Of a DNA stretch of 64,000 bases, positions 40,901-45,772 are shown in pieces. Origin of the DNA: Halobaculum rubrum (GTDB lineage: Archaea; Halobacteriota; Halobacteria; Halobacteriales; Haloferacaceae). The DNA lies in contig NZ_CP082284.1 of assembly GCF_019880225.1 (NCBI RefSeq), forward strand, positions 124,001 to 188,000, written 5' to 3'. Position numbers and translations under genes: made by a program. The notes below the pieces were generated by a model. It did no database searches, was not told where the DNA came from, and saw only the letters and a list, made by a program, of their open reading frames with translations. Within the stretch, counting starts at the first letter, position 1, and every line of letters begins with the position of its first letter.

Positions 40901-41547
40901 CCGATTCGGAGGTCGGCCTCGTCGATGCGCTCCTCGACCGTCTCCAGTTCCTCGAAGGCGTCCTCCTTCTTAGCGTCGAACTCGGCGACGCCCGCGATCT
41001 CGTCGATGATCCCCCGACGCTCGTGGGGGGTCATGTTGATGATGTCGGTCACGTCGCCCTGCATGACAACGTTGTACCCCTCCGGGGTGACGCCGGCCTG
41101 CGCGAGCAGGTCCTGGATGTCCGAGAGGTTGACCGAGCGGCCGTTGAGGTAGTAGTACGAGTAGTAGTTGTCGTCGGTCTCCTTCACCCGACGCTTGATC
41201 GTTATCTGGTCGGTGTCGCCGACGTCGTCGCTGCCGGCGGCGCTGACGACCTGTGAGCGGTCGAGCGTCCCCTCGGAGTTGTCGAGGACGACCTCGACGC
41301 TCGCCTCTCGGTCGCCGGCGGGCCCCTCGCCCTCCTCGTAGCCGGGGTTGTAGATGAGATCGGTGAGTTTCTCCGCGCGGATACCGCGCGTGCGCGCGAG
41401 TCCGAGCGCGAACAACACCCCGTCGATGATGTTCGACTTTCCCGAGCCGTTCGGTCCGGTGATGACTGTGAAGTCCTCGTAGAAGGGGATCCGCGTCGGT
41501 CGCCCGAAGCTCTTGAAGTTGTCCAGTACGAGTTCCGTGATGTGCAT
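37960..41547 (-). CDS. smc: Chromosome segregation protein SMC
   Basis: 1195-residue SMC ATPase that with ScpA organises the chromosome. Walker A GPNGSGKSN at 31-39; coiled coil to about 510; hinge at about 520-690 containing GGRLANVVVDDDGVGSD and TGGSGGGSRYSFSKSGKGK; second coiled coil; signature SGGEKS at 1093-1098 and Walker B YALDEVDAFLD at about 1117-1127. Length is normal for SMC. Preceded by a small coiled-coil gene and followed by scpA. Confidence 0.96.
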   Translation of the reverse strand: MHITELVLDNFKSFGRPTRIPFYEDFTVITGPNGSGKSNIIDGVLFALGLARTRGIRAEKLTDLIYNPGYEEGEGPAGDREASVEVVLDNSEGTLDRSQVVSAAGSDDVGDTDQITIKRRVKETDDNYYSYYYLNGRSVNLSDIQDLLAQAGVTPEGYNVVMQGDVTDIINMTPHERRGIIDEIAGVAEFDAKKEDAFEELETVEERIDEADLRIGEKEDRLDQLADERETALQYQDLRDEKEEYEGYLTAAELEDKREDLAGTRESMASREGELEDLRAELDDRQARVDDLEEDLDEINREIERKGEDEQIAIKAEIEEIKGDVSRLEGKIENQRERVEEAETERRDAFVAIDKKSEEIDEFDAEIRETKVETANLKSTLKSKQTELADVQAEIDSVDTEFDELKAELADRKESLEELRAEKNELQREKDRLLDDARRRSNEIGDVEDELQETREAIPRLNERVSNLHSELDKAEKNKANIDGVIEDLRAEKAEYQEELDGVEEEIREKQQQYSKLEARAGDSGDTSWPRAVTTVTNADFGGVHGPVGELASVPGEYATACETAAGGRLANVVVDDDGVGSDCIDYLKQRNAGRATFLPITEMDERGLPSLPNDPGVVDFARNLVDYDPEYEGIFSYVLGSTLVVEDMDTARHLMGNYRMVTLDGDLVEKSGAMTGGSGGGSRYSFSKSGKGKLERVAEEIHELEDERQRIKAEIADIDDDLDDARSRAADAAEKVRDIESDIERAEETLEEKEGRIGELEERLEELREERESVDAKMTGLDEEIDAADEEIETIEADIEELESELADSKIPELSARADEIRAEIDDLEDRMDDLDGELNQLQLEKQYAEDAVDDLHDTVEEAQSKKADAEERIDEFEERIVEKEATLEQKRDAIAELEDELADLKEEREAVKESFREAKSARDEQESKVERVVSKLESLRETAERLEWEIDSLEEQVGSYDPEAIPDHDTVESEIDRLQAEMEELEPVNMLAIDEYDDVQADLDDLQERRDVLVEEREAIAERIDQFESQKRATFMDAFEAIDEQFTEIFQRLSAGTGELVLEDPEDPFEGGLTMKAQPADKPVQRLDAMSGGEKSLTALAFIFAIQRHNPAPFYALDEVDAFLDAVNAERVGEMVHDLAGEAQFVVVSHRSALLERSERAIGVTMQSDNVSAVTGIQLGDNGEPVPEVQADD

Positions 41548-41626
41548 GCGTGAGGTGGAACGTGGTGTGGTACCCGTCGCGCCGTCGTGACGACGGCGCC
41601 GCGGGCTCGATTACGTGTCGGTGGAC

Positions 41627-41950
41627 TTACGCGACGATGATGTCGTCGGAGTCGTCGTCCGAGGAGTCGGACTCCTCGGTCGTCCCCTCATCGGTGCCGC
41701 GGGCCGCTTTCTGGGCCGAGCCCTCCTCGTCGGCGATCACGCGGTCGTCGCCGGCGCCGTTCGTCGCCGACTCGTTCGGGACGAACTCGGCGTTCGGATT
41801 GCGGTCGGGTGTCGACTCCTCGTCGACCTCCGTCGCGCGCTCCAGCTGCGAGATGCGCTCTTTCGCTTCCACCAGTTCCTCCGTCAGTCCGTCCACGGCC
41901 GCCTGCAGCTCGGCGACCTGTGCCTCGAGATCCTCAACCCGATTTCCCAT
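41627..41950 (-). CDS. Small coiled-coil protein upstream of smc
   Basis: 107-residue protein. Residues 2-42 form a heptad-patterned coiled coil (VEDLEAQVAELQAAVDGLTEEL). The rest is an acidic disordered tail ending in a run of Ser/Asp and a hydrophobic IIVA. Such proteins are sometimes auto-annotated as bZIP factors, but there is no basic region, so that is not supported. Leaderless: TATA element 27 bases upstream. It lies 79 bases before smc on the same strand, so a shared transcript is likely. Function unknown. Confidence 0.75.
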   Translation of the reverse strand: MGNRVEDLEAQVAELQAAVDGLTEELVEAKERISQLERATEVDEESTPDRNPNAEFVPNESATNGAGDDRVIADEEGSAQKAARGTDEGTTEESDSSDDDSDDIIVA

Positions 41951-41973
41951 ACACCGTCAGGGCCTCCCATCCG

Positions 41974-41980
41974 TATAAAT
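41974..41980 (-). promoter_or_regulatory. TATA element upstream of the coiled-coil/smc/scpA genes
   Basis: ATTTATA on the minus strand, centred 27 bases before the ATG at 41950. A consensus-quality box for the coiled-coil gene and perhaps the whole smc-scpA unit. Confidence 0.6.
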
Positions 41981-42220
41981 CCGCGTCAGACAGAGGGATA
42001 CCCCGATACACGCCCCGATACCGGACATAACGGGCGTTTCAGGCTCTATCACAGGAGATCTCTATACGGCCGCTATACACGCTATTACGATATATCGAAC
42101 AGTGTCGACGACGTCACGCGGTACGTCCTTCCTACTCCTAGTAGCGACCTCGTAACATAGTGGCCAACACGGGATCCTGCGCACGAATGTGGAACCTTAG
42201 CCCGGTGAGCAACGATACCT

Positions 42221-43867
42221 ATGGAGGCCGATAGAGCGATGATCGACGCGGAGACCCCGCCCGCGTTCGTTCTCGGGTTCGACGGCGTCCCCTGGAACCT
42301 GATCGAGCGCTGGGTCGACGAGGGTGAGCTCCCGGCGTTCGCTCGGCTGTTCGAGTCCGGGACGACGGGACCGTTGAAGAGCACCACGCCGGCATCGACC
42401 CCGCTGGCGTGGCCCTCGATCGCGACCGGACGACGACCGGACGGGCACGGATCGTACTGGTTCCGGACGATCGGCTCGGATTACTCGCACTCGGTGACGA
42501 TGAGTCACGATATCGGCGGTCCCTTCGCGTGGGACCTGCTCGCGCCGGCGTCCGTCGCGAACGTCCCGATGACGTATCCCGCACGGCCGATGGACGGTTA
42601 CATGGTCACCGGGATGATGACCCCGCACAAGCGCGAGGGGTTCACACATCCGCCCGAGCTGGCGGAGACACTCGCCGAGCGTGTTCCGGACTATCGGATC
42701 GGACTCGACTGGGAGTCGTACGACGGCGACAAGCGAGAGTTCGCCGCCGAGATCGACGACGTTGTCGACGGACGCGAGCGCTTGCTCGAGTACCTGCTCG
42801 CGGAGACGGAGTTCAGGCTGGGGTTCGTCGTGTTCACCGCGCCCGACCGCCTCCAGCACCTCGTGTGGGACGAGGACGTGCTCCTCGAACACTACCGGCG
42901 GCTCGACGAGGTGCTCGCGACCGTCCGGTCGTACGTCGAGGCGCGCGACGGGACGCTGTTCGTCGTCTCGGACCACGGGTTCGGCCCGGCCGAGCGGATC
43001 GTCTCCGCCAACCGCGCGCTCGAGCGCGAGGGGCTGCTCTCCCGCCGCACCGACGAGGGAACGCGGGGCGTCCTCGGCCGACTGGGCGTGACCAAATCGA
43101 CGGTTCGGGGGTGGCTCGACCGCGTCGGCATCGACGACGCCACCATCGTCGAGTCCGTTCCACAGGGGCTCGTCGACATGGTCGCGATGCAGGTCCCCGG
43201 CACCAACGCGGTGTACGACATCGAGTACGGGGAGTCCCTGGCGTTCGTCCGCGGTGCCGGCTCGGTGTATCTCAACCGGAGCGATCGGTTCGAGGACGGT
43301 ACCGTCGACCCCGACGAGGTCCCGGAGTTAAAATCGCGGGTGCGCGCCTGCCTCGAGTCGGTGGCGGACCCGGAGACCGGCGAGCGTGTCCTCGAGGTGT
43401 TCGACGGCGACGAGCTGTTCCCGACCGACGACTCCTCGCCCGAGCTCGTCGTGGAAGCCGAGCCGGGGTATCTCGTGCAGACGCCCCTCGCCGACGAGGT
43501 GGTCGTCGATGCACAGTCCACGGCGGCCGGACACCGCCCGGAGGGGATCTTCCTCGCGACCGGGCCGGACGTCGCTGCGGGACGACGGATCGACGGGGCC
43601 ACGGTCTTCGACGTGCTCCCGACGCTTCTGCACGCGCTCGGCGAACCCGTTCCGACGACCGTCGACGGCGAGGTGATCGACTCGGTGTTCGCCGACGGGA
43701 GCGAACCGGCCGTCACCGAGCCGACCGTTCGTCCGTACGAGGGCGCCGACCGGGAGCGCCGGGCGCCGCCGGGTGAACGCGCTGCGACGAACGGGGCGGA
43801 AGCGGACGACAAGACCCCCGACGCCGTGGAGGAACGCCTCCGCGGGCTGGGGTATATCGACGACTGA
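42221..43867 (+). CDS. Alkaline phosphatase superfamily protein (type I phosphodiesterase)
   Basis: Phosphodiesterase/nucleotide-pyrophosphatase-like protein, 548 residues. N-terminal GFDGVPWNLIERWV (metal Asp), then TTPASTPLAWPSIATGRRPDGHG around the nucleophile, a middle Asp-His (VVSDHGFG) and a late ATGPDVAAG. No signal peptide, so probably cytoplasmic. Substrate unknown; family members act on nucleotides, phospholipids or phosphosugars. A CCTTAG element lies only 21-26 bases before the ATG at 42221. The in-frame ATG at 42239 (after GGAGG) is an alternative start. Confidence 0.85.
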   Translation: MEADRAMIDAETPPAFVLGFDGVPWNLIERWVDEGELPAFARLFESGTTGPLKSTTPASTPLAWPSIATGRRPDGHGSYWFRTIGSDYSHSVTMSHDIGGPFAWDLLAPASVANVPMTYPARPMDGYMVTGMMTPHKREGFTHPPELAETLAERVPDYRIGLDWESYDGDKREFAAEIDDVVDGRERLLEYLLAETEFRLGFVVFTAPDRLQHLVWDEDVLLEHYRRLDEVLATVRSYVEARDGTLFVVSDHGFGPAERIVSANRALEREGLLSRRTDEGTRGVLGRLGVTKSTVRGWLDRVGIDDATIVESVPQGLVDMVAMQVPGTNAVYDIEYGESLAFVRGAGSVYLNRSDRFEDGTVDPDEVPELKSRVRACLESVADPETGERVLEVFDGDELFPTDDSSPELVVEAEPGYLVQTPLADEVVVDAQSTAAGHRPEGIFLATGPDVAAGRRIDGATVFDVLPTLLHALGEPVPTTVDGEVIDSVFADGSEPAVTEPTVRPYEGADRERRAPPGERAATNGAEADDKTPDAVEERLRGLGYIDD

Positions 43868-43976
43868 TCGACGCTCGGAGCCGTCTCGACGCCGAGGGGT
43901 GTCGACACCGGCGGACACGTGTCGCGCGCGGTCGCAACCACAACCACCAAACGCGGGCCACCCCTACCGGCGGGCA

Positions 43977-44900
43977 ATGAAGGCTCGCGCAGTCCGCGGC
44001 GTCCTCCTCGCGGGGCTGTTGTTCCTCGTCGTCCACGTCGGCGCCGTCTCGCTGGCGCCCACCTTCGAGGCGGCCGGCTACCAGACGGTCGAGGACCCGC
44101 AGAACCCGACCAACTCCGCGCTGTATCTCGGCGCCATCCTCGTCGTCACCGCGCTGATGCTCGCGGCGTTCAAGTACGACTTCGACTGGGCGGTCCGGCT
44201 CGTCATCGTCGCCTCCTCGGGGATGCTCTCGTGGTACGTCTTCTCGGTGTTTCTCCCCGGGATAGCTGCCATCGCCGCCGCCGGGCTCGTCGCCGTCGCC
44301 CTGCTCGCGTACCCCGAGTGGTACGTGATCGACGCCGCCGGCGCGCTGATGGGTGCCGGCGCCGCCGGACTCTTCGGCATCTCCTTCGGGCTCCTGCCGG
44401 CGATCGTCCTCCTGTCGGTGCTCGCGGTGTACGACGCCATCTCGGTGTACGGCACCGAACACATGCTCGACCTCGCGGAGGGCGTGCTCGACCTCAACAT
44501 CCCCGTCGTGCTCGTCATCCCGCTGGAGTGGTCGTACTCGCTGCTCGAGGAGGGGTCGACCGAGGGCGCCACCGAGGGAACCGACGAGGACGAGCGCGAC
44601 GTGTTCTTCATCGGCCTCGGCGACGCGGTGATGCCCGCGGTGATGGCCGCCTCGGCGGCGTTCTGGTCGCCTGCACCGGCGTTCGGGCTCCCGATCGTCC
44701 CCGCGATGGGGCTGCCGACGCTGTCGGCCATCGTCGGGACGTTCGTCGGCCTCGGAATCCTCCTGCGGATGGTGCTGAAGGGTCGCCCGCACGCCGGCCT
44801 CCCGCTGTTGAACGGCGGCGCCATCGGCGGCTACCTGCTCGGCTCGGTCCTCGCCGGCGTCCCGCTCGTACAGGCGCTGGGTCTGGCACAGTATCTGTGA
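43977..44900 (+). CDS. Presenilin-type intramembrane aspartyl protease (first copy)
   Basis: Archaeal presenilin/signal-peptide-peptidase homologue (PSH), 307 residues with about nine membrane helices. Both catalytic aspartates are present: YD at 152-153 (AVYDAISVYG) and GLGD at 213-216. The PAL-like motif is GLPLLNG at 274-280. Cleaves transmembrane segments of substrates in this family. Start MKARAVRG begins with a short basic stretch before helix 1. The second copy overlaps its stop by 4 bases, so the two are coupled. Confidence 0.88.
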   Translation: MKARAVRGVLLAGLLFLVVHVGAVSLAPTFEAAGYQTVEDPQNPTNSALYLGAILVVTALMLAAFKYDFDWAVRLVIVASSGMLSWYVFSVFLPGIAAIAAAGLVAVALLAYPEWYVIDAAGALMGAGAAGLFGISFGLLPAIVLLSVLAVYDAISVYGTEHMLDLAEGVLDLNIPVVLVIPLEWSYSLLEEGSTEGATEGTDEDERDVFFIGLGDAVMPAVMAASAAFWSPAPAFGLPIVPAMGLPTLSAIVGTFVGLGILLRMVLKGRPHAGLPLLNGGAIGGYLLGSVLAGVPLVQALGLAQYL

Positions 44901-45772
44901 CTGATCGTCCCGTGGCCGGCCGTCCCGTCGTCGGGGAGCTGGCCCGGAGACTTCGGGATCCCCGCGTCCGCGGCGCCGTCGGGATCGGCGCCCTGTTTCT
45001 CGCTGTTCAGCTGGTCGCGCTCGCGGCGGCCCCGCGGCTCGCCGGCTCCGGCGTCAGCTACGGGAGCGGGGGCGACGCGCTCGTCCCGCTCGTCCTGGGG
45101 CTCGCAGTCGGCACCGCCCTCTCGCTGGCGGTGATCCGGTACGGCGCCAGTCGCCGGCTCGTGCGCGGGGTGATGCTCGTGTCGCTCGGCGCCGCCCAGT
45201 GGTTCGCCCTCTCCGCGTTTCTGGGGTCCGTCGTGGGCGCCGTCGCGGCGGCCGCGGGGACCGCCCTCGCGTGGCGCGTCCCCCGGCCCGCAGTCCGCAA
45301 CGCAGTCGCGGTCGTCGGCGTCGCGGGCGGGGCCGCGCTGTTCGGCGCGAGCCTCGCCCCCGCGTACGCCGCCGCCGGGCTGGTCCTCGCGGCCGGCTAC
45401 GACGCCTACGCCGTGTACGGCTCGGGCCACATGCTCGAGATGGCCGACGCGAGCGCGGACCTTCGGGTTCCGTCGATGTTCGTCGTCCCCACCGACGACG
45501 GGGACGCCGACGCGAACGCGACCGTCTCCGGCGAGGGGACGCCCGCGGCGACGCTGCTGGGCGCCGGCGACGCGCTGTTCCCCGCCATGTTGACCGCGAG
45601 CGTCGGGATCGGGGCGCCGGGGACGCTCGCCGCGGCCGCGCCGCTGCTCGGATCGCTCGTCGGCCTCGCCGCCCTCCAGGTGCTCGTCCACCGCGTCCGC
45701 GGCGTCCACGCGGGGCTGCCGTTCGTCAACGGCGGCGCGCTCGCCGGCTGGCTGGCACTGCTGCTCGTGTGA
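44897..45772 (+). CDS. Presenilin-type intramembrane aspartyl protease (second, diverged copy)
   Basis: Paralogue of the preceding gene, 291 residues. It retains the same catalytic skeleton: YD at 168-169 (AGYDAYAVYGSGHMLEMAD), GAGD at 222-225, and the PAL-like GLPFVNGG at 273-280. The N-terminal cytoplasmic tail is longer and basic. The GTG start overlaps the upstream TGA (GTGA), so a separate start is unlikely. Both Asp residues survive, so it is probably active. Function of the pair is unknown. Confidence 0.82.
   Translation: MTDRPVAGRPVVGELARRLRDPRVRGAVGIGALFLAVQLVALAAAPRLAGSGVSYGSGGDALVPLVLGLAVGTALSLAVIRYGASRRLVRGVMLVSLGAAQWFALSAFLGSVVGAVAAAAGTALAWRVPRPAVRNAVAVVGVAGGAALFGASLAPAYAAAGLVLAAGYDAYAVYGSGHMLEMADASADLRVPSMFVVPTDDGDADANATVSGEGTPAATLLGAGDALFPAMLTASVGIGAPGTLAAAAPLLGSLVGLAALQVLVHRVRGVHAGLPFVNGGALAGWLALLLV

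Follow-up and report, generated by a model that had tools for sequence, protein, structure and literature searches.

Overlapping genes for two presenilin-type proteases as a putative module in Halobaculum and related haloarchaea

Introduction

The archaeal presenilin homologue (PSH) serves as a model of presenilin and gamma-secretase chemistry. In Halobaculum rubrum, two genes of this family overlap by four nucleotides, and the locus raises the questions of whether the second gene encodes a genuine protease, how it came to lie beside the first, and whether the two products act apart or together. The sequence-only reading of the locus had proposed a translationally coupled pair that forms a heteromeric protease or covers two substrate ranges, and this interpretation as a whole is partly supported by the present analysis. 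For HVO_1107, the PSH of Haloferax volcanii, the role is listed as unknown (PMC9263693).

Results

The overlapping gene pair

The window, i.e., the whole stretch of 64,000 nucleotides that was analyzed, comprises positions 124,001 to 188,000 of contig NZ_CP082284.1. It contains the following features of the pair.

43977..44900, + strand: PSH-A, main presenilin-family intramembrane aspartyl protease (ATG start, TGA stop, 307 aa)
44430..44435, + strand: YD of PSH-A, catalytic aspartate 1 (D153)
44613..44624, + strand: GLGD of PSH-A, catalytic aspartate 2 (D216)
44790..44804, + strand: HAGLP of PSH-A, equivalent of the PAL motif
44897..44900, + strand: GTGA, overlap of the PSH-A stop and the PSH-B start (-4 register in 18/19 genomes)
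44897..45772, + strand: PSH-B, divergent second presenilin-family intramembrane aspartyl protease (GTG start, TGA stop, 291 aa)
45398..45403, + strand: YD of PSH-B, catalytic aspartate 1 (D169; invariant in 15/15 aligned Bs)
45560..45571, + strand: GAGD of PSH-B, catalytic aspartate 2 (D225; invariant in 15/15 aligned Bs)
45707..45721, + strand: HAGLP of PSH-B (AGLP invariant in 15/15 aligned Bs)

The tandem of presenilin-like genes with a GTGA overlap is confirmed by the coordinates of the open reading frames, by profile scores, and by matches to the solved PSH 4hyc. The two proteins share about 32% identity and are the only PF06550 matches in their own genome (E value of 1 or better). PSH-A and PSH-B score 276.3 and 83.8 bits, respectively, with the Pfam SPP profile PF06550 (cut-off of 23.9) and 368.1 and 125.4 bits with the NCBIfam "PSH" profile NF041679 (cut-off of 125, barely exceeded by PSH-B); their sequence matches with 4hyc have E values of 3.5e-50 and 1.2e-19. 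The NF041679 cut-off is passed by 13 of the 15 B proteins in our alignment A1, and since two fall below it and the B of the window clears it by 0.4 bits, automated pipelines may annotate B inconsistently.

The YD and GxGD aspartates are invariant in the 15 Bs and 17 As aligned and are also kept in the four further carriers G028, G187, G188, and G189, in the last as GTGD (G, g, and L numbers are our handles for genomes, genera, and loci). Of the motifs that had been claimed for both copies, these two are intact, while the PAL-like one reads HAGLP in each and a literal PAL is absent; the archaeal PSH MCMJR1 is itself described as lacking an obvious PAL (PMC2947513). Conservation of B, as judged from hand-set segments, is highest in loop 1, TM2, TM5, TM6, and the strand-TM7 part with GAGD and lowest in the N-terminus and the TM6-TM7 and TM7-TM8 loops. 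The conserved stretches specific to B (loop 1 and LGAGDALFPA), together with the loss of the YPEWYVID motif and the C-terminal tail of PSH-A, suggest a different handling of substrates.

Two further traits that had been ascribed to PSH-B are, as far as the aligned sequences tell, non-diagnostic. Its longer basic N-terminus is real in the window but is the least conserved segment of the protein, and with 0 of 21 positions invariant among 15 Bs it does not represent a conserved feature; an R-x-RG motif, matched in 16 of 19 junctions, follows the start codon at a distance of 4 to 25 residues. The loop between YD and GxGD is indeed shorter in PSH-B (distance of 56, versus 63 in PSH-A) but not unusual, since the 12 non-haloarchaeal PSHs used span 54 to 64; haloarchaeal As reach up to 128.

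A presenilin-type fold is predicted for PSH-B by a structural model based on 15 sequences (pLDDT of 85.3, pTM of 0.84), which shows nine long membrane helices and two short active-site strands (residues 194 to 198 and 218 to 222); in human SPP, substrates pair with such active-site strand elements (PMC13252537). VIA-align superimposed the model on PSH chain 4hyg_B with a Z score of 21.2 (228 residues, 3.1 Å) and on SPPL2a (9k93) with a Z score of 22.3, the first unrelated row having a Z score of 5.2, and the best 25 PDB matches obtained with Foldseek were all PSH, SPPL2a, or gamma-secretase chains. The model of PSH-A is too weak for a detailed structural comparison of the two proteins (pLDDT of 59.9), but Foldseek still ranked 4hyg_B first (E value of 3.8e-9).

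Distribution of PSH-B

PF06550 is present in 390 of the 391 genomes drawn from the class Halobacteria and mostly occurs once per genome, which bears out the view that the arrangement is unlike the usual single-copy PSH. A profile built from alignment A1 (15 Bs) detected B orthologues in 17 of these 391 genomes (E value of 1.7e-74 or better); the next-best match (E value of 1.2e-38) lies in a genome with one PSH. Within the Haloferacaceae, 19 of 170 genomes from four genera carry B, i.e., all 11 of Halobaculum (g1), all 3 of g16, all 4 of g9, and the sole genome of g19, and no B-less genome was encountered among the 19 searched in these genera. The carriers include Halobaculum gomorrense (G002), H. 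saliterrae (G005), H. litoreum (G008), and "Candidatus Halobonum tyrrellensis" (G028). The phylogenetic check on conservation of the pair as a unit, which had been suggested beforehand, is positive within this one group (19/19 carriers) but not across the class, where B is rare. Judged from these genome comparisons, A and B are inherited together as a unit within a small set of related haloarchaea.

Two PF06550 matches per genome are not equivalent to such a pair. They reflect a single gene interrupted by a long loop in G020 and G054, a contig break or frameshift in G168 and G060, similar full-length copies on two contigs in G026, and distant copies elsewhere; the remaining two-match genomes of the class with a weaker best match were taken as split genes collectively rather than one by one. 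Six two-match genomes of the Haloferacaceae are without a listed second place (G118, G120, G127, G129, G173, and G191). The B profile found no B match in G127, and G118, G120, and G173, which belong to the class draw, are not among the 42 genomes that match it; the count of 19/170 was made apart from G129 and G191.

Several unusual PSH genes were seen in the course of this survey. The two full-length copies of G026 (C5:118708-119664 and C10:515394-516350) have nearly equal scores and represent either a duplication or an assembly effect. A contig of an uncultured euryarchaeote MAG (L063:6450-8639) contains a 730-aa open frame holding a PSH whose N-terminal part is split from the PEWYV-YD-GLGD part by an apparently soluble insert of ~380 residues. 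Moreover, an identical 299-aa frame, which suggests recent transfer, is present in two genera (L090, G151:C37:181914-182522; L091, G086:C31:245030-245638); its product is a divergent SPP-like protein with YD and GIGD, in which no GLP motif was found.

The junction and its surroundings

B lies directly 3' of A in 19/19 carriers, once across a contig break, as the B of G028 is cut by contig ends, with its first 83 codons ending one contig and its last 187 beginning another. In 18 of the 19 carriers, B is read in register with the GTG that arises from the last leucine codon and the stop of A (-4 overlap), and the exception is G005, where B starts at a GTG after a gap of +10 nt. Since A ends in CTG-TGA in the carriers, the letters GTGA come free, and the informative part is their use by the B frame. 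Between this GTG and the conserved start of TM1, 12 of the 19 carriers have no alternative in-frame start, whereas one or two exist in G000, G002, G134, and G187, and two or three in the scanned stretch of G188 and G189, which were judged from the translation as the motif was unmatched by the pattern; G005 stands outside this reading because the overlap GTG is unused there.

A GTGA or ATGA overlap alone is ordinary: in Haloferax volcanii, where distances of -8 to +10 nt are regarded as a sign of termination-reinitiation, -4 nt is the most frequent one, with 354 gene pairs (PMC10666635). The A-B spacings (-4 nt in 18 carriers, +10 nt in G005) all fit this range.

The pair is flanked by the genes for ScpA and SMC on one side and by PUA, NYN, deaminase, and PhzF genes on the other. 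In 7 of 14 single-copy loci of the Haloferacaceae (L005, L008, L015, L020, L023, L028, and L029), the PUA gene lies at most ~75 nt from A, so that B fills the slot between A and PUA. The gap between SMC and PSH-A varies in length from ~0.7 to 5.7 kb. In the window (41547-43977) it holds a type I phosphodiesterase gene (42221-43867), for which tblastn yielded no match in the other fetched Halobaculum loci.

Selection on PSH-B

For 15 genome pairs, dN/dS amounts to 0.19 to 0.37 in B and 0.07 to 0.23 in A, and the dN of B is 1.3 to 4.4 times that of A, so that weaker constraint could explain part of the divergence of B. No internal stop was detected in the B genes of 18 carriers (17 read whole, G187 to the contig end) or in either B fragment of the 19th, G028. 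The "TGA inside" flags of G003 and G009 were interpreted as matches running into the normal stop codon, since both frames are open. Decay of B is rejected on the basis of the dN/dS values, the motifs invariant in 15/15 Bs, and the open frames. The two objections that the sequence-only reading had raised against itself, namely a decaying second copy and genes lying far apart, thus both fail within the carrier group that contains Halobaculum, where B is intact and adjoins A.

Origin of PSH-B

In a tree of 62 proteins, all As used form one clade (support of 99/93) and all Bs another (100/100). B joins the second copies of Halosimplex, QS_5_68_33, G320, G400, G358, and G053 (97/94), and in a second tree built from an altered set of rows that includes G037, the grouping of B with this second subfamily has a support of 98/94. 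The 62-protein tree drops 26 of 88 rows, namely long branches (L063, L083, L117, and L021 among them), the divergent L090, and near neighbours; for the second tree, L044_G053_A was also dropped and L121 was added. A preceding quick tree had been calculated after removal of both copies of five Halobaculum genomes, the 83-aa fragment of G028, the L050/L051 rows of G033 and G012, for which L005 and L011 stand in, and 14 of the 26 rows from outside the haloarchaea; its join of B with L083 was flagged by a warning.

Most second-subfamily copies share YDAY[AS]VYxSGHM and LGxGDA with B, the counterparts in A typically being YDAISVYGTEHM and F(F/I)IGLGDAV. PEWY is kept in 9 of 10 rows of clade C (Halosimplex, G281, G358, G320, G400, and QS_5_68_33, with G037 and G053) and in no B. 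In the AU test, joining B to the As of B-carrying genera gave a p value of 0.077, joining it to all Haloferacaceae As in the data set 0.0195, and joining it to all As in the data set 0.041; a union of A and C that leaves out B gave 0.06. The stem of B is very long (~3 changes per column), so that long-branch effects are possible. According to the trees, B would belong with a rare, separate haloarchaeal PSH subfamily rather than with A, for which the AU test is not decisive. A recent tandem duplication of A is disfavored by the trees but not firmly rejected (p value of 0.077). B may be a member of an old second subfamily that was kept or moved beside A, or a very fast-changing tandem duplicate.

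In the 62-protein tree, a single clade (97/82) unites the As of the B-carrying genera, and B would most simply have been gained once and then inherited. Two observations argue against so tidy a gain: the quick tree did not separate these As from the single-copy G012, and the order of genera differs between the two proteins, as g9 groups with Halobaculum in B (91/78) but lies outside it in A.

A separate tandem of a main-type PSH followed at once by a second-subfamily PSH was observed in G053, which belongs to another family (L044, G053:C36:85487-87555), and none of the window's neighbor genes was found around it. This tandem hints that the pair arrangement is older or arose twice. Other second-subfamily copies are dispersed (G281, G358, G320, G400, G188, and the Halosimplex loci L058, L059, L061, and L062; L080 to L084) and are separated from the main PSH by 56 kb to 1.5 Mb where both are on one contig; G188 carries A, B, and a third PSH copy.

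Discussion

The gene structure, the conserved junction, the purifying selection, the intact motifs, and the predicted presenilin fold of PSH-B point to an apparently intact gene of a known enzyme family. PSH-B is very likely a genuine PSH-type protease in design, and it is likely produced together with PSH-A. In the preferred explanation, PSH-A is the near-universal haloarchaeal PSH and probably clears what is left of signal peptides and other material in the membrane. PSH-B, as a second protease of a divergent type whose catalytic motifs are intact, would be made by termination-reinitiation on the shared message in amounts that follow those of PSH-A, and would act independently on a substrate spectrum of its own that changes faster, resulting in a division of labor. 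We give roughly even chances to this two-gene PSH module, in which the second protease is produced along with A and has separate substrates.

It is preferred to its nearest competitor, a plausible if somewhat less probable union of A and B in a single hetero-oligomeric intramembrane protease, for which coupling fixes the ratio of the two subunits and allows assembly during synthesis. The spacing of the genes favors a complex over separate enzymes, as 45.2% of the H. volcanii pairs at -8 to +10 nt putatively specify the subunits of a heteromer versus 5.6% of those more than 20 nt apart (PMC10666635). Oligomers are also documented in this family: human SPP is a constitutive homodimer (PMC13252537), and PSH is a tetramer in the crystal and runs on native gels as both monomer and dimer (PMC9282858). 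Furthermore, B was encountered only with A present and adjacent (19/19), and in nine Halobaculum genomes the A-B distances correlate beyond controls (partial r of 0.64; 4/500 permutations). The latter test is unspecific, however, since A and ScpA reach a partial r of 0.53 in the Halobaculum set and the unrelated pair PUA-SMC a value of 0.75 in the 14-genome set, compared with 0.46 for A-B, and the correlation, though suggestive, was set aside as proof of A-B co-evolution. In addition, the second-subfamily copies of G281, G358, and G320 and the A genes of these genomes are 56 kb to 1.1 Mb apart, and this subfamily can therefore do without tight coupling. The stricter version, an obligate or preferred A-B hetero-oligomer of two catalytic subunits with differing active-site specificities, co-translational assembly, and a fixed ratio, is regarded as tentative.

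Two other roles of PSH-B are much less probable. The loss of the YPEWYVID motif and the shortened C-terminus could mean that B regulates or chaperones A and retains the fold without being proteolytic, but one or both aspartates should be missing from a pseudoenzyme, and the retention of YD, GxGD, and AGLP in 15/15 aligned Bs makes this role improbable. Least probable and largely refuted is a redundant duplicate under relaxed selection and heading for loss, with which the faster evolution of B (dN ratio of 1.3 to 4.4) and the two Bs below the NCBIfam cut-off would agree, but not its low dN/dS, invariant motifs, uninterrupted frames, and presence in all 19 genomes searched of four genera.

A group of organisms with two co-inherited PSHs provides a genetic handle, because single deletions of A and B could separate a housekeeping from a second role, and A/B deletions in one host would test whether such proteases mix subunits. 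In the portions consulted of the literature on archaeal presenilin homologues and GxGD proteases, an overlapping conserved pair of two PSH types was not found, although an earlier description is possible.

Among known systems, PSH/MCMJR1 of Methanoculleus marisnigri (PDB 4hyc, 4hyg, and 4y6k; NF041679) has the fold and the YD and GxGD aspartates in common with the pair, as well as an AGLP-containing motif before the last helix, and PSH-A is an ordinary member of this type. The difference lies in the presence of two divergent, overlapping copies, of which B is devoid of YPEWYVID and the C-terminal tail. The dispersed second copies of clade C differ in location, being on another contig from A in G400, and among these non-B copies only that of G053 adjoins A, whereas B does so in all 19 carriers. 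Human SPP/SPPL and presenilin have the same GxGD fold, with VIA-align Z scores of ~19 to 22 for SPPL2a and most gamma-secretase presenilin chains, at no more than 11 to 17% identity. They differ further in that human SPP is a homodimer, which has been observed with two bound signal peptides (PMC13252537), and that presenilin requires three further subunits (PMC4326451).
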